DNA from: Sporosarcina sp. NCCP-2222
Lineage (GTDB): Bacteria; Bacillota; Bacilli; Bacillales_A; Planococcaceae
NCBI RefSeq assembly: GCF_023168145.1
Contig: NZ_BQYK01000003.1
Span: 438,114 to 502,113 of the forward strand
DNA length: 64,000 nucleotides
Direction of reading: 5' to 3'
Made by a program: the position numbers and the translations under genes. Every line of letters begins with the position of its first letter. Position 1 is the stretch's first letter. Below the pieces are notes generated by a model. It saw only the letters and a list, made by a program, of their open reading frames with translations, did not search any database and was not told where the DNA came from. This document shows positions 6,195-63,345 of the stretch, in pieces.

Positions 6195-6401
6195 ATGGAA
6201 TTACAGGCGGTTTATAATTACGATCCTTTCGTCTATGAGACATTACAATCAATTGTAGGTAAATTCATCGTTATTGAAACGACCCAAGGATCCATCGAAG
6301 GTACGATTAAAGCGGTAAAACCAGATCATGTTGTATTGACGGGACGCTCTAAGGATTTTTATGTGAGGATTGCGCAGATTGTTTGGCTCATGCCAGATTA
6401 A
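6195..6401 (+). CDS. YuzF-like small protein (DUF2642)
   Basis: A 68-residue protein closely following the B. subtilis YuzF pattern: D-P-x-V-Y-E-T-L-Q-S-I-V-G, then a TTQGSIEG strand, VKPDHVVL and the invariant-looking end RIAQIVWLMP. The fold resembles small Sm-like beta barrels; the family is associated with sporulating Bacillales and its role is unknown. The ATG at 6195 is chosen because AAGGAG is 8 bases upstream; the GTG at 6186 would overlap that site. Monocistronic. Confidence 0.8.
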   Translation: MELQAVYNYDPFVYETLQSIVGKFIVIETTQGSIEGTIKAVKPDHVVLTGRSKDFYVRIAQIVWLMPD

Positions 6402-6410
6402 TTAAATGAA

Positions 6411-6437
6411 TGGGGGTAGCTCACCCTCTTTTTTTAT
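6411..6437 (+). terminator. Weak terminator after the YuzF-like gene
   Basis: A short G-rich/C-rich stem (GGGGGT / ACCCTC with mismatch) followed by seven T. The 240 bases from here to the next gene show no other clear feature. Confidence 0.5.
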
Positions 6438-6676
6438 TTCCATTAAGAGTTTTTATTCTTGTGGAGAAATTACGATGTTGAGGCTCTTACACTGGATACT
6501 TCCAACCAACTACATATGAATGTATTCGGCAACGAAAGCAAACAGTCTGGCATGCGAATTACATATCACCAGGCATGACGTTCAAATAACACAGGCAATC
6601 TATACTTTTTGCAGCTAATAAAAAGGTTTTTAACGGACCGCGGAGAATATATCAGAGGAAAAGGAGGAATTACATA

Positions 6677-7078
6677 GTGTCTAATTTCATATCCCATATC
6701 GCAACAGTAGAAATCCCAGTCTCCAACCTCGCACAATCGATTGATTTTTATACGGAAATTCTTGGGGTCACCGTCATCTTTCGAGGAGAGACGCAGGCCA
6801 TGCTTTCATTTGAAGCCAAAGGCGTGCCGACCTTGTTCCTTGTGCAAACAGAAAACATGCAACGTCTTTCTTTTGTGAACTCCTTTACGGGTGTTGAGCA
6901 TACTATTATTGATTTCTACACTGAAAATCTTGCGGAGTTTCGTCAGTGGCTGATGGAACGCAAAGTCGAAGTCGGAAGCCTGAACGTCAACGCAGAAAAT
7001 GGACTTGGTGGTTTCGGCTTTAAAGACCCGGATGGTAATATGCTAAGCGCCTGTAATATTCTCCACGAACACCAGTAG
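6677..7078 (+). CDS. VOC family protein (glyoxalase/bleomycin-resistance type)
   Basis: A 133-residue vicinal-oxygen-chelate protein with two beta-alpha-beta-beta-beta modules: the first starts at TVEIPVSNLAQSIDFYTEILG, the second ends with GFGFKDPDGNMLSAC. The potential metal ligands are a Glu in the first strand, the His of VEHTI and residues of the last strand, though the first-strand ligand is not a His as in true glyoxalase I. GTG start at 6677 follows AAAGGAGGAA. Enzymatic activity cannot be assigned. Confidence 0.85.
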   Translation: MSNFISHIATVEIPVSNLAQSIDFYTEILGVTVIFRGETQAMLSFEAKGVPTLFLVQTENMQRLSFVNSFTGVEHTIIDFYTENLAEFRQWLMERKVEVGSLNVNAENGLGGFGFKDPDGNMLSACNILHEHQ

Positions 7079-7096
7079 GACTGGAAATTTCTCAAC

Positions 7097-7127
7097 AGGC
7101 GAGGATCTGCCCTTCCTCGCCTTTTTT
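7097..7127 (+). terminator. Intrinsic terminator after the VOC gene
   Basis: 8-bp perfect stem GGCGAGGA / TCCTCGCC with an 8-base loop and six T. Confidence 0.88.
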
Positions 7128-7204
7128 ATTGGAGGCATGTTAATTTCCACTCCATCATAGTCTCTACAACTACTAAAAGATAAGGAGAGACAAACATTCG
7201 GAAA

Positions 7205-7585
7205 GTGATTCTTGTTTGTTTAACACTGTTACTCATTGTTTTGATTAGCTATGCCCTATGGAATCAGAGAGATACAAATGGTTCTCCGGAGTCCGAAGTA
7301 GACATTCCGGCAGAATATAACGAAGCCTTAATGATGGATAAAATAATTGAAGCAGATTTTTCGAACATCGTGTTTCAATCCCTTCAAGAAAAAGGCTACG
7401 AATTACATGAAAGTGCAGGCTACCAATTCATTTCGGACAAAAGGCAAGTCATCACATTATCCATGTACGACATCGATATCTATGATGAAAAAGTTGTTCA
7501 AGACATTCAACAGATAATCGATAGCGTCTCGCAGGAAAATGATTTTCCTCCATTCCACGTTGAGATCCACGTCATTCATCGCTAA
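7205..7585 (+). CDS. Unrecognised small protein with N-terminal membrane anchor
   Basis: About 126 residues: a hydrophobic helix (first 18 residues) then a charged soluble domain of alternating strands and helices; no family recognised. The frame's conventional start is GTG 7205, but the AAGGAG site at 7182-7187 is 17 bases away from it. An in-frame ATT at 7196 has ideal spacing (8 bases), so a non-canonical AUU start, giving three extra residues, is possible. It converges on the SgrR-like gene with only 10 bases between stop codons and no obvious terminator. Confidence 0.65.
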   Translation: MILVCLTLLLIVLISYALWNQRDTNGSPESEVDIPAEYNEALMMDKIIEADFSNIVFQSLQEKGYELHESAGYQFISDKRQVITLSMYDIDIYDEKVVQDIQQIIDSVSQENDFPPFHVEIHVIHR

Positions 7586-14080: not shown

Positions 14081-14280
14081 GGATTTGGCGAGTTGAATGC
14101 TTGATTTTGCACTGCCCATTTGACGTAATTCGAATTAGGAGCGTGGAATCGGGAAACGGATGCCAATAACTCCGGTGGAACGCCATTAACTCCAGCTGAA
14201 CGCCAATAACTACGGATAAACGCCATTAAATCGAATAACTCCCGCTGAACGACAATAAAGCGAATTTGGCACGCAGTCAC
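14081..14280. repeat. Intergenic array A of degenerate 20-bp units
   Basis: Exactly 20-bp units run from 14161: each begins C/TGCCA(A/T)TAAC and ends G(A/G)TGAA or similar, three in phase (14161, 14181, 14201), then further copies at 14221 and 14251 with small indels. Left of them, units of the opposite orientation are visible in more decayed form (TTTGGCG at 14084, then related TTTGCAC and TTTGACG). The right edge carries TTTGGCACG-CAGTCACC, also found in array C. It sits between convergent genes. No coding sense is supported. Confidence 0.8.
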
Positions 14281-29392: not shown

Positions 29393-29812
29393 TTATCACC
29401 GACTCTCGGGCGGTTACCACCGACTTCGGGACCAATACCACCGTTTCTCCAACGCTTACCACCGACTCTCGTACCATTACCACCATCTCTCCATTGCTTA
29501 CCACCGACTCGCTTATTTACCACCGACTTCCGGTCCAATACCACCGTTTCTCCAACGCTTACCACCGACTCTCGTACCATTACCACCGTCTCTCCATTGC
29601 TTACCACCGACTTCCAACCCTTTACCACCGTTTCTCTAACGTTTACCACCGTCTCTCGGACCATTACCACCGTCTCTCCATCGATTACCACCGACTCTCG
29701 AACCCTTACCACCGTCTCTTCATTGTTTACCACCGACTCTCGAACCCTTACCACCGTCTCTTCATTGTTTACCACCGACTCTCGAACCCTTACCACCGAC
29801 TCGCCGCATTCA
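29393..29812. repeat. Intergenic array B: 20 tandem units of about 21 bp
   Basis: Units start with ACCACC(G) and alternate between two kinds, GACTCTCG-type and GTCTCTCCA-type, giving a 42-bp super-period in parts. Nearly all units are 21 bp; one near 29503 is 19 bp and shifts any reading frame. Reading frames on both strands stay open only because 21 is a multiple of 3. The last five units (from about 29690) are nearly identical pairs, the oldest-looking ones are on the left. It lies between a SIMPL gene and a GNAT gene on the minus strand, after any 3' end of the former. Confidence 0.85.
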
Positions 29813-42725: not shown

Positions 42726-45041
42726 TTAGGGGGTTGTCGACTCATCCTTCAATAAGGTCCTTGAGTAAAGCAAGCCGACAATACCGACGACAATAAATAA
42801 AATGGCACGGATGAATAGTGAGATGCTTGCCATATCAACGATGAACAGTTTGAGCAGGCTAAACCCGACTATAATTGCCCCAAGAATTTTGACAACCTTC
42901 CAATTCATGACTTTTCCGATGCTGAAAGAGATGAACGCAAAAGCCATTAGCAGGAATGTATGAACAAAAAGGATGTATTCCCATTCCCACTCGTAGCCGA
43001 ACGCAATCGTTAAGTACCATTTATTCAAGAAGATAAAATACAAGACTTGCATTGTGACAGCCAATGCCGGAACTACCTTTTTGAACCGCTCAGGCTTGAA
43101 ATAGAATTTCCCTTTTAAGATTGTCCGGAACAGATAGGATAAGCAAATGACGTAGACTATCTGGACAAACAGATTCAACCATAATCCATCAGTATTTGAG
43201 AAGTTCGTCAAGTTAAACAACAAGACAAACAATCCCAAAAGGAGTAATTCAATGACTGCCGCATGCGCCAAATAAATTCCGCGATGCCATTTAACAAAAC
43301 TGAACGTGATAACCATTGCGATTAAAAAAGCAAAGAAAAAGATATGCATGCTAGTTACCATATTAAAATCAAATGCAGTGATCAACAAGTTTGCCATATA
43401 ACCGACATAGATGAGCAAAACCAACTGTCCTGCAATGAAACTGATGTTGAGTAGCTTTTCTTGCCCCTTCAAGATGGAAGGTACATTCTGAGTCAATGAA
43501 TAAAAAATTAAGACGATCGTATAGATAAAAATGGCCCAAATGAGATTTTCGATGGATACAAATGAATCAATATGGATTACGGTTAAAACCGCCAGCGCCA
43601 CGATACTATAAGCAAAAGCTCCGATGACCATCAAACGGATGGTGTCGAACCGAATACCAAGCCAAAGTCCGAGTGTTGCAATAACAAGCATCAGCGTCAA
43701 TTGAATGAGTGGTTCATCCAACCGGAATGAGAGAACCATTACGCTCGCAGCTATGATCGAAATTGCAGTAAAGATGCTCATTCCAAGGTTTTCACCCTTT
43801 TTGTAAGCGATTGCCGCTAGTATGCTGTAGAGTACAACTAAGAATCCATAGACAGCCAAACGCAATTCATACTCTAAAATCGCTACCCAAAATAACATAA
43901 CGGCCGCATTGGCATAGAGCATAATTTCACTAGATACTGCTTTTTTGCTGAGCCCTCTCATATACGACACAAGCAACACAATGTGTTGAACCAAAACGGT
44001 GAGCACGATGATATTCTTGTCGACAAAGAGGATATTCATAACCGTAAAGATGACGAGCGTCAGGTGGTACAAACTAAAGGAGACATAGAACGAATACGTA
44101 TGCCCCTGCTTCAATGAAATGTAGAACAATGAGATAAACAACAATAACAGATAGATGGCGAACTGAATTGTGGTCGCATTCGTGTCCTCTAATAGGAAAG
44201 GAAGAAGAAAACCCGCGATGGCAGAGAACATCGTCAGCGTTTCGGATTTGAGTCGGCTAGATAACCAAAGGCCTGCAGCAATATAAGCGACAGCAATTAG
44301 GAATGCCACGATGTATGGAAAATACCCATAGAGATGATGTGCAGCAAATGTAGTTAATATGCCGAGTGCGATAAAACCACCTAATAATGTGAGCCCAAAC
44401 GGAGCACGGGAGTTTTGAATGTTTCTCATTCCTGCATAATAGAGAAGTGCTGTTCCGGCATAACCAAGGAGAATGCGCACCCAATCCGTTATCCAACCAT
44501 TATCAAACGCAACTTTCAGTCCCCACAGGACACCTAACAGCAAGATGAACATAAAAACTCTTGGCAGCCAAAGACCGAGCATTCTTTCTAAATTGAAATC
44601 CGACTTCTCCGGCTTTTCGGCTGGTTGCGCCTGTGACTGAGTGAGCATTTCAGGCGGTTGCATTTCCGTTGATGATACGTTCTGTGGTGAAATTCCAGTT
44701 AGCCGTCCTGGCCCTGAATGCACAGTTTCCCCATGGATCTCTTCTGAAACTGGTTCAACGGCCTTCTCGTGAGTCTCCAACGGAACAGATGGTTGGTTAT
44801 GCATGATGTTTACAGGTTCTGCTGACTTGGCTAGTTCTACTGGTTCCGCTGACTTAAATGATTTTACCCGCTCTTCTAGTCCCGTTGGTTCTGCTGGTTG
44901 GAGTGGATCTTCTGCTTCGACTGGTTCTTCTGCTTCGATTGATTGACTGCTTTCCTTCTCAGCCAATTCTTTTTTTAAGTGCAGTAATTCCTCCTCCAAC
45001 TCAGACATTCTTTTTTGAATCCCATCGAAATCCTTGGACAA
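42726..45041 (-). CDS. Large DUF2339 membrane protein
   Basis: A 771-residue protein. Residues 1-30 are a coiled coil (MSELEEELLHLKKELAEKE). Residues 35-150 are a Glu/Pro-rich linker with repeats of AEPV- type (KSAEPVELAKSAEPV). From residue 155 on there are about 24 hydrophobic helices starting at LGLWLPRVFMFILLLGVLWGLKVAFDNGWI, the DUF2339 core. Function unknown; the architecture suggests a cell-envelope sensor or transporter. TTG 45041 has AAAGGGGTG upstream. Its N-terminal repeats make it prone to length variation. Confidence 0.87.
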   Translation of the reverse strand: MSKDFDGIQKRMSELEEELLHLKKELAEKESSQSIEAEEPVEAEDPLQPAEPTGLEERVKSFKSAEPVELAKSAEPVNIMHNQPSVPLETHEKAVEPVSEEIHGETVHSGPGRLTGISPQNVSSTEMQPPEMLTQSQAQPAEKPEKSDFNLERMLGLWLPRVFMFILLLGVLWGLKVAFDNGWITDWVRILLGYAGTALLYYAGMRNIQNSRAPFGLTLLGGFIALGILTTFAAHHLYGYFPYIVAFLIAVAYIAAGLWLSSRLKSETLTMFSAIAGFLLPFLLEDTNATTIQFAIYLLLLFISLFYISLKQGHTYSFYVSFSLYHLTLVIFTVMNILFVDKNIIVLTVLVQHIVLLVSYMRGLSKKAVSSEIMLYANAAVMLFWVAILEYELRLAVYGFLVVLYSILAAIAYKKGENLGMSIFTAISIIAASVMVLSFRLDEPLIQLTLMLVIATLGLWLGIRFDTIRLMVIGAFAYSIVALAVLTVIHIDSFVSIENLIWAIFIYTIVLIFYSLTQNVPSILKGQEKLLNISFIAGQLVLLIYVGYMANLLITAFDFNMVTSMHIFFFAFLIAMVITFSFVKWHRGIYLAHAAVIELLLLGLFVLLFNLTNFSNTDGLWLNLFVQIVYVICLSYLFRTILKGKFYFKPERFKKVVPALAVTMQVLYFIFLNKWYLTIAFGYEWEWEYILFVHTFLLMAFAFISFSIGKVMNWKVVKILGAIIVGFSLLKLFIVDMASISLFIRAILFIVVGIVGLLYSRTLLKDESTTP

Positions 45042-48010: not shown

Positions 48011-48750
48011 TTAGGTTGAAGCTATTTTGTTTATAAAGCTCTCAACAATTTTTGAGTAGAGCAATGGCTGGTCTTGGTGCACAAGGTGGCCGGCAAAAGG
48101 AAGAACCGCTACATGAAAATTTTCGTTCCTCTTTGGGTACTCGATAACTCCCATTACTTCATGCGCTTTGTCTTCGCCTACCAGAAGAAGAGAAGGGCAC
48201 TGAATGGAGTGAATCTCGCCAGTTTCCTCAAAAGGATACCAATCCGTTTCGATTGATTCCTTTAAAAATTTCTTCCAATCGGACAGATGCAGCTGACTAA
48301 AGTATTGGACAATCTGCTCGTCCAAAAGCATAGCCACTTGGTTGGCTGCATCTTTTTCACATAAGACATTCCAATTATCCGGTCTTGTTGACGTGATGCC
48401 TGAGATAATCAAGCTGCTTAATCGGTCTAAATGAATCTTGGCGAACTTCAATCCGATTAACGCTCCTAACGAACATCCAATCAGATGCGCTTTTTCAATT
48501 CCTAAGCTATCATTCCTAAGCTATCCATTGTTTCGATTAAATCAGTGACACTATCGGAAAAGTAAGTGGAGAACGCTACATCTTGTACATAAGATTTCCC
48601 GTGGCCCCGCAAGTCCGGAGCATAGACTTTGTAGTGTCCCTTAAAATATTCTTGCTGAAATAAAAAATCCGTCTGTCCAGTTTGTAATCCGGTATGCAGA
48701 AAAACCAGAGATTCCTTGCCATCACCAGAGACGGTGAAGTGCAAGCGCAT
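48011..48750 (-). pseudogene. Alpha/beta hydrolase gene disrupted by a 14-bp tandem duplication
   Basis: The first 82 codons (from ATG 48750) read as an alpha/beta hydrolase: LHFTVSGDGKESLVFLHTG, DLRGHGKSY, then SLGM-IA-stop. The frame is then shifted. At 48498-48525 the 14-bp unit ATTCCTAAGCTATC occurs twice in exact tandem. Removing one copy restores one frame of 726 bases (241 residues plus stop) with the nucleophile elbow GCSLGA, ending with the catalytic-His region LPFAGHLVHQDQP. It is therefore a recent, reversible-looking disruption. Start has AAAGGG upstream. Two fragments can still be translated but neither is a full enzyme. Confidence 0.9.
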
Positions 48751-61752: not shown

Positions 61753-62532
61753 ATGGAGGATTTGCTGAAGCTGAATGGGAAAAATATTGTCGTCATGGGT
61801 GTGGCAAATGAACGGAGCATCGCATGGGGCGTCGCAAAATCGCTTTTCGACGTAGGGGCGAATGTGATTTTCACGTACCGGAAAGAACGGTCATTAGCAA
61901 AGCTGGAAAAAGCATTAGAGAAAGCTGGCTTAGAACCAAAAATGATCGTCCAATGTGATGTGAACGAAGATGAAAGCATTGAACATGCCTTCACATTAAT
62001 TGGCGAAACATTGGGCACGATCCACGGGGTAGTTCACTCCATTGCATTTGCACATGCCGAAGACTTGCATGCAGATTATATAAATACATCTAGAAGCGGT
62101 TATGCATTCGCTCAAGATTCCAGCTCATATTCACTTGTTGCCACAGCACGGGAGGCCCGCCGTTTCATGACAGAAGGCGGTTCTATCATTACAATGAGTT
62201 ATTTAGGCGCTGAACGCGTCTTGGAAGGATACAATGTGATGGGTGTCGCAAAGGCTGCACTTGAAGCATCGGTCCGCTATCTGGCGAGCGACCTCGGTAA
62301 GGACGCCATCCGCATCAACGCCATTTCAGCTGGGGCTGTTCGTACCCTGTCTGCGAAAGGCGTTCCGTCCTTCAACACAATTCTTGGTCAAATTGAAGAA
62401 CGCGCACCGCTCAAGCGCAATATTACAAACGAAGAAGTCGCCAAAATGTCCATCGCCATGCTAAGCGATCTATCTTCTGGCGTGACAGGCGAAGTCATTT
62501 ACGTGGATGCAGGCTATCACATTATGGGATAA
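61753..62532 (+). CDS. fabI: Enoyl-[acyl-carrier-protein] reductase (NADH), FabI
   Basis: A 259-residue SDR-fold enzyme that performs the last reduction of the fatty-acid elongation cycle. NAD-binding GVANERSIAWGVAKSL at the N-terminus, catalytic Tyr-x6-Lys in GYNVMGVAKAALEA and the Pro/Ser-rich INAISAGAVRTLSAKGV substrate loop match FabI. ATG 61753 has CAGGAGG; the earlier in-frame start at 61705 lies just inside the FapR-type operator. Terminator follows. Target of triclosan-type inhibitors in general. Confidence 0.95.
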   Translation: MEDLLKLNGKNIVVMGVANERSIAWGVAKSLFDVGANVIFTYRKERSLAKLEKALEKAGLEPKMIVQCDVNEDESIEHAFTLIGETLGTIHGVVHSIAFAHAEDLHADYINTSRSGYAFAQDSSSYSLVATAREARRFMTEGGSIITMSYLGAERVLEGYNVMGVAKAALEASVRYLASDLGKDAIRINAISAGAVRTLSAKGVPSFNTILGQIEERAPLKRNITNEEVAKMSIAMLSDLSSGVTGEVIYVDAGYHIMG

Positions 62533-62539
62533 AAGGAGT

Positions 62540-62572
62540 CGGCAGGGATAGTATATTCCTGCCGATTTTTTG
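62540..62572 (+). terminator. Intrinsic terminator of fabI
   Basis: 10-bp stem TCGGCAGGGA / TTCCTGCCGA with a short AT-rich loop, then six T. Confidence 0.9.
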
Positions 62573-62600: not shown

Positions 62601-62798
62601 TCCAATTAACTTCAACTGAACGCCATTAAATCAATTTGAACGCCAATAACTCCGGATGAATGCCAATAAATGGAGCGGGCTCCTTTTTGGCACGGTCACC
62701 TTGCTATTTGGCGCATTATCTTTTTATTTGGCGCAGTCTTTTTCTTTATTTGGCGCGTACTCCTAGCTATTTGGCGCAAGATGCACTTTATTTGGCGC
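62601..62798. repeat. Intergenic array C: two half-arrays of 20-22-bp units in opposite orientation
   Basis: Left half: CGCCATTAAA (62621), CGCCAATAAC (62641), TGCCAATAAA (62661), spaced exactly 20 bp. Middle: a 4-bp hairpin GGAG-CGGG-CTCC and a TTTTTGGCACGGTCACC block. Right half: TATTTGGCGC at 62705, 62725, 62747, 62768 and 62789 (20, 22, 21 and 21 bp apart), i.e. the reverse-complement orientation (GCGCCAAATA). Located between the fabI terminator and a convergent GNAT gene. Same family as array A. Confidence 0.88.
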
Positions 62799-62886
62799 GG
62801 TTCTAAGCTTTCTGATGCATGCTCACTCCCTAACCAAATCCTCTAAAGTCTTAACAACTGATTTCTTATGAACATCACTGTTCTCT

Positions 62887-63345
62887 TTACAGCAAATCTA
62901 ATGGATACACCATGCTGATTTCTTCCTCATCGACTTCGCTGGTGTGTTGAAAGCCTGCACTTTCGTATAGCTTGCATGCCACTTCATCTTCTTCGTGATA
63001 ACAAAGGGTGATCGCCTCATACCTCTCTTTCTTTCCAACAAAAGACATCCACTCCTGCAGGGCGGCTTTGCCATAGCCCCTGCCTTGATATTGTTCTCCA
63101 ATCATGAACTGATCCAGCACACAATAGATCTTTCCGTTTTCTTCATAGTCCCGCTGCATCAGCAGACCTACGGGTAATTCAGCATAATAGATCGCGTAGA
63201 CATGACTGTTTTGGTTTCGAAAAGCGTATGCCCTCGCCATGATGGTGACGTTCGGAGCGACAAACTTGCTCTGCTCTTGCCTCACCTTCAATGAATTAAA
63301 TATACGCCAATTGTCTGGTGTTATCTCCCTAAAATGAATGGTCAT
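62887..63345 (-). CDS. BltD/PaiA-like GNAT acetyltransferase
   Basis: A 152-residue GNAT similar to diamine/spermidine N-acetyltransferases. LDQFMIGEQYQGRGYGKAALQEWMSFV contains the acetyl-CoA loop, ITLCYHEEDEVACKLYESAGFQHTSE the C-terminal part, and the N-terminal REITPDNWRIFNSLKVRQEQSKFVA is typical of this group. Substrate unproven. GGGAGGGGAAAGG precedes the ATG. Confidence 0.88.
   Translation of the reverse strand: MTIHFREITPDNWRIFNSLKVRQEQSKFVAPNVTIMARAYAFRNQNSHVYAIYYAELPVGLLMQRDYEENGKIYCVLDQFMIGEQYQGRGYGKAALQEWMSFVGKKERYEAITLCYHEEDEVACKLYESAGFQHTSEVDEEEISMVYPLDLL

Follow-up and report, generated by a model that had tools for sequence, protein, structure and literature searches.

Does the change of orientation inside an intergenic repeat array of Sporosarcina sp. 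NCCP-2222 mark one functional unit shared by the two flanking genes, or have two separate arrays simply met there? The array in question, array C, lies in the window, i.e. the whole stretch of 64,000 nucleotides that was analysed (G000:C3:438114-502113; G000 is the source genome, 4.02 Mb in 24 contigs). Both neighbouring genes point at it: a fabI-like enoyl-ACP reductase gene on the left (61753..62532, + strand; Pfam PF13561, E 1.3e-80) and a GNAT acetyltransferase gene on the right (62887..63345, - strand; Pfam PF00583, E 4.2e-9). The terminator scan placed a terminator-like site between the left gene and array C (62533..62571, + strand); this and 62452-62469 were the only sites between 62400 and 62950, and no GC-rich stem with a T run was found inside array C. 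A terminator role for the array was rejected, given this separate upstream site and the lack of an orientation rule in the array's own families.

Array C is built of two half-arrays. The left one, of the GAACGCCA type, occupies 62618..62669 on the + strand with three units at a period of 20 bp, GAACGCCATTAA at 62618, GAACGCCAATAA at 62638 and GAATGCCAATAA at 62658; its consensus is GAACGCCAWTAA, also written GAACGCCA(A/T)TAA, in agreement with the initial annotation, which had read CGCCA(A/T)TAA every 20 bp. The right one, of the GCGCCAAAT type, occupies 62684..62798 on the - strand and comprises six units; their steps are 20-22 bp, the spacing described in the initial annotation. Five of these are exact copies of GCGCCAAATA (62705-62714, 62725-62734, 62747-62756, 62768-62777 and 62789-62798; spacing 20, 22, 21 and 21), and the sixth is a degenerate GTGCCAAAAA at 62684-62693, given as “TTTGGCACG” in the initial annotation. 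Across 1000 dinucleotide shuffles of 62601-62800 no array reached four units, a threshold under which the + half alone, with its three units, falls. The two cores had been taken for reverse complements of each other; CGCCAATAA and CGCCAAATA are indeed related, but they are not exact reverse complements and differ in their 5' letters and period. The halves of array C are members of two related genome-wide subfamilies, not one element plus its exact reverse complement.

At the point where orientation switches, the GGAG/CTCC hairpin proposed earlier exists as an inverted repeat (62672..62683), but it is weak: its arms are no longer than 4 bp, folding of the stretch is not superior to that of its shuffles (z = -0.66), it is not among the sites of the terminator scan and, by eye, it has no counterpart at the corresponding loci of the relatives G064, G043 and G016. 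The combination TTTGGCACG-N0-4-GTCACC, noted before as common to arrays A and C, has two exact matches genome-wide, precisely one in each of these arrays. Array A (14158..14272) likewise shows both orientations, as reported, with five + units of the GAACGCCA type followed by one - unit (GTGCCAAATT, 14263-14272), and is flanked by convergent ypsA-like and S9 peptidase genes. Array B (29393..29798, - strand) belongs to a third subfamily and carries 20 units of the CGGTGGTAA type (TTACCACCG on the + strand) with a period of mostly 21; its ortholog at locus L298 of G064 has other units and another unit number. Among the matches listed, TTACCACCG arrays occur in one-strand clusters within about 100 kb (G040 C10 1.90-2.00 Mb; G004 C17; G053 C53). 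The window also holds two short tandem repeats, one of 18 bp at 44886-44938, inside a - strand ORF (42726-45041), and one of 14 bp at 48498-48525.

Arrays of this kind are spread over the whole genome. The two-unit pattern CGCCAWWAA-N5-15-CGCCAWWAA gave 55 matches in G000 and none in its backward control, and the TATTTGGCGC pattern gave 31 against four. A de novo finder returned 42 arrays of at least four units in the window plus 27 fetched stretches, with array A and the + half of array C falling below its rule; stretch L187 yielded none, nor did the window when shuffled three times. Across 151 genomes, the three-unit ACGCCA pattern was met in ten, including G000 (400 matches), G016 (354), G064 (489) and G043 (24); in four of the ten (G032, G040, G071 and G087) the matches are other sequences, two of the ten have a single match, and the backward control matched in four of 151 genomes, 1-5 times each. 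Pairs of GCGCCAAA were present in 11 of the 151 genomes, four of them with one match each that may be due to chance, and pairs of TACCACCG, the family of array B, in 16, all belonging to the genus of the window; the backward controls for both pairs gave one or two matches in some genomes.

In other genomes, at least 117 stretches with CGCCAATAA pairs were found, and 64 of those listed hold chains of at least four units. The titles of 57 of these 64 name Mesobacillus, Cytobacillus, Bacillus sp. or Sporosarcina; the other seven are Chryseobacterium sp. ISL-80 (three), Allobacillus, Odoribacteraceae, Tannerella and Planktothricoides. The ISL-80 loci (L082, L109 and L143) carry arrays of the Bacillales type and their record is probably misnamed, as is probably the record of L160, titled Arthrobacter beigongshangensis, with arrays of the same type. 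Core types met within and between lineages include GAACGCCA, GCGCCAAAT, CGGTGGTAA, CGAGCGGTT, TGACCGATAA and TTTGCTCG. Arrays with core CGAGCGGTT were seen at L181 (5185-5295) and at L279, L282, L289 and L290 (G043), six of seven being called between convergent genes (two in one region) and one lying at a locus edge. Locus L198 of G013 (6280-7463) holds 57 near-identical 21-bp units of the GCGCGCAACGCGGGTCATCCC type, a far more homogeneous array from the genus of the window.

Orthologous arrays were compared to see how the units change, one of seven pairs giving no ortholog segment. At four loci with GCGCCAAAT arrays in G000 and G064, changes affected 20/291 core, 68/335 spacer and 141/841 flank positions (core against spacer, p = 9e-7; core against flank, p = 2e-5), and at two loci with CGCCAATAA arrays in G013 and G039 they affected 2/90, 24/96 and 57/500, correspondingly (p = 3e-6). 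Neutral simulation under the same counting rule gave near-equal core and spacer rates, 0.102/0.098 and 0.259/0.278. For the Bacillaceae elements of the TCGCCAATAA type, 12 hand-picked pairs, in which each array was used once but two or more ortholog groups entered twice through different members, showed 24/679 core and 96/573 spacer changes (p = 1e-15), together with 85/470 in the leader and 327/1207 in the flanks, the latter rate being inflated because some flanks align badly. The leader of these elements changes no more slowly than the spacers (p = 0.62), and in two of the 12 pairs spacer changes are not in excess (0/39 and 0/31). All 54 Bacillaceae pairs, which are non-independent and many of which align poorly, gave 273/2971 core, 881/3152 spacer and 1167/3735 flank changes. 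In three comparisons, core change was 3 to 11 times rarer than spacer change. The core is constrained over the spacers in the GCGCCAAAT, CGCCAATAA and TCGCCAATAA types, which is one mark of a phased array.

The other mark, a period of whole helical turns that persists although the spacers are unrelated, was found as well. With steps of 17-25 admitted to the count, every one of the 72 intervals in G013, G063 and G039, three other species, is 21 bp at a mean spacer identity of 36%; 44 of 45 intervals of the G000 GCGCCAAAT arrays are 20-21 bp at 38%, and in the CGCCAATAA-pair loci listed and used 275 of 281 intervals are 20-21 bp. Constraint and spacing together form the pattern of a sequence-specific reader that requires all its sites to face the same side of the helix, a reader that we infer. 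The initial claim of an element as opposed to decay of one sequence is supported by the conservation of cores over spacers and by the over-representation between convergent genes in the G000 sample, and is not supported where it makes the orientation switch the functional feature. Array C is a real intergenic element, apparently constrained.

The likeliest reading, in our view about an even call, is that array C is a chance meeting of two phased intergenic arrays, the cores of which are putative sites for a protein that binds double-stranded DNA sequence-specifically. In each array a conserved core of 8-12 bp (GAACGCCA(A/G)... or GCGCCAAAT) recurs at every second helix turn, with the letters in between only loosely constrained; copies of the protein would align on one helix face and may bind cooperatively, and the resulting nucleoprotein patch, situated mostly near gene ends, might act in chromosome organisation, in insulation or as a block to read-through transcription. 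The head-to-head order of array C most likely has no separate role. Cores vary from lineage to lineage and also inside a single genome, so a single conserved protein could not recognise all of them unless its specificity drifts. A wider generalisation, which we offer tentatively as a possibility, is that Bacillaceae and Sporosarcina share a class of intergenic elements with a common plan of about six or many more phased, lineage-specific cores (CGCCAATAA, TCGCCAATAA, GCGCCAAAT, CGGTGGTAA, CGAGCGGTT, TGACCGATAA and others), for which a candidate fast-evolving DNA-binding protein would be the reader, building patches near gene ends. If the arrays are phased operators, each chromosome would have dozens of sites of protein assembly near gene ends, and these would add a new element to what organises the chromosome or insulates transcription in Firmicutes; the strict period and the core constraint lead to a concrete, testable prediction of a protein with a two-turn footprint.

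The composition of the elements bears on alternative accounts. In the CGCCAATAA-pair loci listed, with six Sporosarcina loci and one Tannerella locus left out of spacing and unit counts, 35 of 58 arrays consist of exactly six units. A TTTCCAGT arm precedes unit 1 in 47 of 59 arrays of the listed loci, usually as part of the inverted repeat ACTGGAAA...TTTCCAGT. The Mesobacillus and Cytobacillus loci L049-L164 present themselves as a compact dispersed element, in which the ACTGGAAA...TTTCCAGT leader is followed by about six TCGCCAATAA units, and sister elements have the core TCGCTATAA (L051 and L119). Arrays of G013, G063 and G039 mostly have five or six units and, by eye, a different leader near GTAAAGTCCTGATT; no common leader was seen by eye before the arrays of G000, G064 and G016.

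Dispersed copies, a recurrent leader and the roughly six units in Mesobacillus and G013-type genomes, along with core types that differ by lineage, are what one would expect if the arrays were a non-autonomous mobile or selfish repeat, the cores of which are recognised in trans by a transposase or similar enzyme. We regard this as unlikely. Dead insertions would not be expected to keep their cores constrained in old orthologous copies. Six aligned pairs of G000/G064 loci, picked for having arrays and therefore biased on empty sites, hold arrays on both sides with differences in growth and loss and offer no clean empty site. Searches by blastn returned no match in plasmids (three array queries) or in phages (one query), and a plasmid or phage origin was rejected on these four query-collection pairs. 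Viral contigs gave 18 matches to the two-unit pattern, all of them chains of only 2-3 units.

Placement and strand bear on whether the repeats act in transcripts instead. Genes were called with a home-made codon scorer that had overlooked some genes and was therefore trained again under a less strict cut-off. The by-region count for the G000 sample placed 37 of 42 arrays; an earlier placement had left out five of 35 merged arrays, two lying on low-scoring ORFs through the array itself, one on a well-scored gene start and two at edges. The 25 array-bearing intergenic regions of this sample comprise 10 convergent, 13 co-directional and two divergent ones, against 20, 106 and 36 of the 162 regions without an array; convergent regions are over-represented (10/25 vs 20/162, Fisher p = 0.0016), and for divergent ones p = 0.12. 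Among the CGCCAATAA-pair loci listed, a few of which are not Bacillaceae, and with 14 locus-edge arrays left out, 11 array regions are convergent, 34 co-directional and one divergent (n=46), compared with 33, 119 and 44 of those without an array (n=196); here divergent regions are avoided (p = 6e-4) and convergent ones are not enriched (p = 0.29). In the wider Sporosarcina set, promoter avoidance is weak for the families of array C, as eight of 62 placed arrays lie in divergent regions. Arrays tend towards gene ends, and convergence as such is no rule, most array regions of the G000 sample being other than convergent.

In co-directional regions the core of all subfamilies taken together follows the sense of the genes in 65 of 93 cases (p = 2e-4, orthologous arrays counted), most strongly in the CGGTGGTAA family (12/14), and such a lean is not what a purely DNA-level role predicts. 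The two families of array C show no such bias (19 same, 12 opposite, p = 0.28), and local GC skew reveals no replication-strand rule for them (19:19 and 10:10); the CGCCAATAA-pair loci listed lean to the leading strand by the same measure (39:18, p = 0.008). As orientation in the families of array C tracks neither transcription nor the replication strand, it fits a DNA-level role better than an RNA-level one.

It is quite unlikely, in our estimate, that the repeats work as a non-coding RNA or 3'-UTR element in mRNA decay, translation, Rho-type termination or as a small RNA, even with the sense bias over all subfamilies, the inverted-repeat arm of TTTCCAGT and the rarity of arrays in divergent regions of the CGCCAATAA-pair loci listed to recommend it. 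Two arrays were folded and neither did better than its shuffles, the long one doing worse (z = +2.1), and base-exact spacing over unrelated spacers suits helical phase better than single-stranded RNA; also, the terminator-like site preceding array C is strong. At gathering score there was no Rfam family in the window, and none was found at the array loci searched: when nine of these were scanned by E-value, the one family to pass its gathering score was a c-di-AMP riboswitch located away from the array. This riboswitch is a ydaO leader at L061 (4833-4981). Identity as an RNA gene was rejected for want of an Rfam match and of a stable fold.

That the arrays are functionless, neutral minisatellites growing by slippage we hold to be distinctly improbable. 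Array length does vary a great deal: the L175/L291 locus has about 15 GAACGCC units in G064 and two in G000. The GAACGCCA type forms rows of up to 34 units with alternating 40-bp dimers (spacer identity 0.59), and this alternation looks like slippage or unequal exchange; the GCGCCAAAT type forms short rows with unrelated spacers (identity 0.38). From these long, homogeneous dimer rows, the short rows and the growth at L175/L291, the GAACGCCA type looks young and expanding and the GCGCCAAAT type old and kept. It should be added that, of the 67 genomes with a fabI match, 30 loci from the genus were fetched and 23 of them are without any array, which would suit neutral repeats. However, the rarity of core changes in all three comparisons, the near-exact period despite unrelated spacers and the centring of unit number on six in the CGCCAATAA-pair loci listed speak against neutral growth.

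The orientation switch itself proved to be an exception. Among GAACGCCA/GCGCCAAAT arrays lying within 300 bp of each other, 17 of 19 adjacent pairs have the same orientation, and the two non-parallel pairs are one head-to-head (array C) and one tail-to-tail (L174); the 19 pairs come from 17 loci of G000, G064 and G016, some mutually orthologous, and none was met in the G043 loci. Among the three relatives whose FabI is most similar, G064 has at the fabI locus only a + array (13 units; FabI 100%), G043 only a - array (eight units; 99%) and G016 only a + array (nine units; 99%), so that each has one half and the head-to-head switch is not conserved. The neighbour of array C is not conserved either, since the GNAT gene is incomplete in G043 and absent in G016; by eye, one end of it is missing at L243 of G043 and none is found before the next gene at L244 of G016. 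At the fabI loci of G031 and G040 the arrays have another core, TGACCGATAA, and at that of G050 it is TTTGCTCG. The switches of array C and L174 and the single reversed unit of array A do all lie between convergent genes, as had been suspected, but those of array C and L174 have opposite polarity and the number of cases is two, or three with array A. A two-sided element serving both convergent genes is accordingly very hard to sustain and largely refuted, and the switch was rejected as a conserved unit, being found in two of 19 adjacent pairs and missing in all three closest relatives. The conserved feature, which corrects the initial view, is the phased core and not the orientation switch.

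How do these arrays compare with known repeat systems? In CRISPR arrays both the repeat and the spacer exceed about 20 bp, whereas core and spacer here are 8-12 bp each. Plasmid iterons and centromere-like repeats are direct repeats of 20-22 bp read by Rep or ParR proteins, and the present arrays resemble iterons as direct repeats about two helical turns apart; they differ in forming dozens of dispersed chromosomal arrays without a plasmid match for three array queries, and array C stands beside fabI-like and GNAT genes and not beside rep or par. The bcr1 repeat is a folded element of about 155 bp. Repeats of the bcr1 type, described for Bacillus, are like the present arrays dispersed in Bacillaceae, as far as the descriptions in PMC3446304 and others go, and the present arrays, being phased and not a folded element, are set apart from them by description. 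REP sequences are palindromes, and BIMEs alternate in orientation, both being characterised in the relevant part of PMC2817692 as intergenic protein-binding repeats; in contrast, the units studied here are direct repeats with a consensus devoid of inverted symmetry by eye, and regular alternation is absent, as the largely parallel adjacent pairs show. Among the matches listed from open-licence PubMed Central, there were no repeats of the present type in Sporosarcina or Mesobacillus.

The closest known kind are the STAR elements of Staphylococcus aureus, as portrayed in the sections of PMC3532100 that deal with them: interspersed intergenic direct repeats with a GC-rich core of 14 bp, T(G/A/T)TGTTG(G/T)GGCCC(C/A), and locus-specific spacers of about 40-44 bp, which expand and contract at fixed loci, show at gapR a start signature that precedes 1-6 motifs, and had an unknown function as of 2012. 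The arrays described here are likewise dispersed and intergenic with locus-specific spacers. On the strength of that account they differ from STAR in the sequence of the core (GAACGCCA/GCGCCAAAT, by eye) and its length of 8-12 bp, in spacers of 8-12 bp and steps of 20-22 bp in place of 40-44-bp spacers, and in the genera in which they occur; a counterpart of the start signature is not seen by eye before the G000, G064 and G016 arrays, and leaders are present in other lineages. Given these differences in the sequence and length of the core and in the spacing, array C was not filed as STAR. As to the kind of protein that might read such sites, binding to direct repeats is, in the portion of PMC9723621 concerned with it, restricted to few prokaryotic regulators, mostly of the AraC family, and by this analogy the AraC family may serve as a lead.
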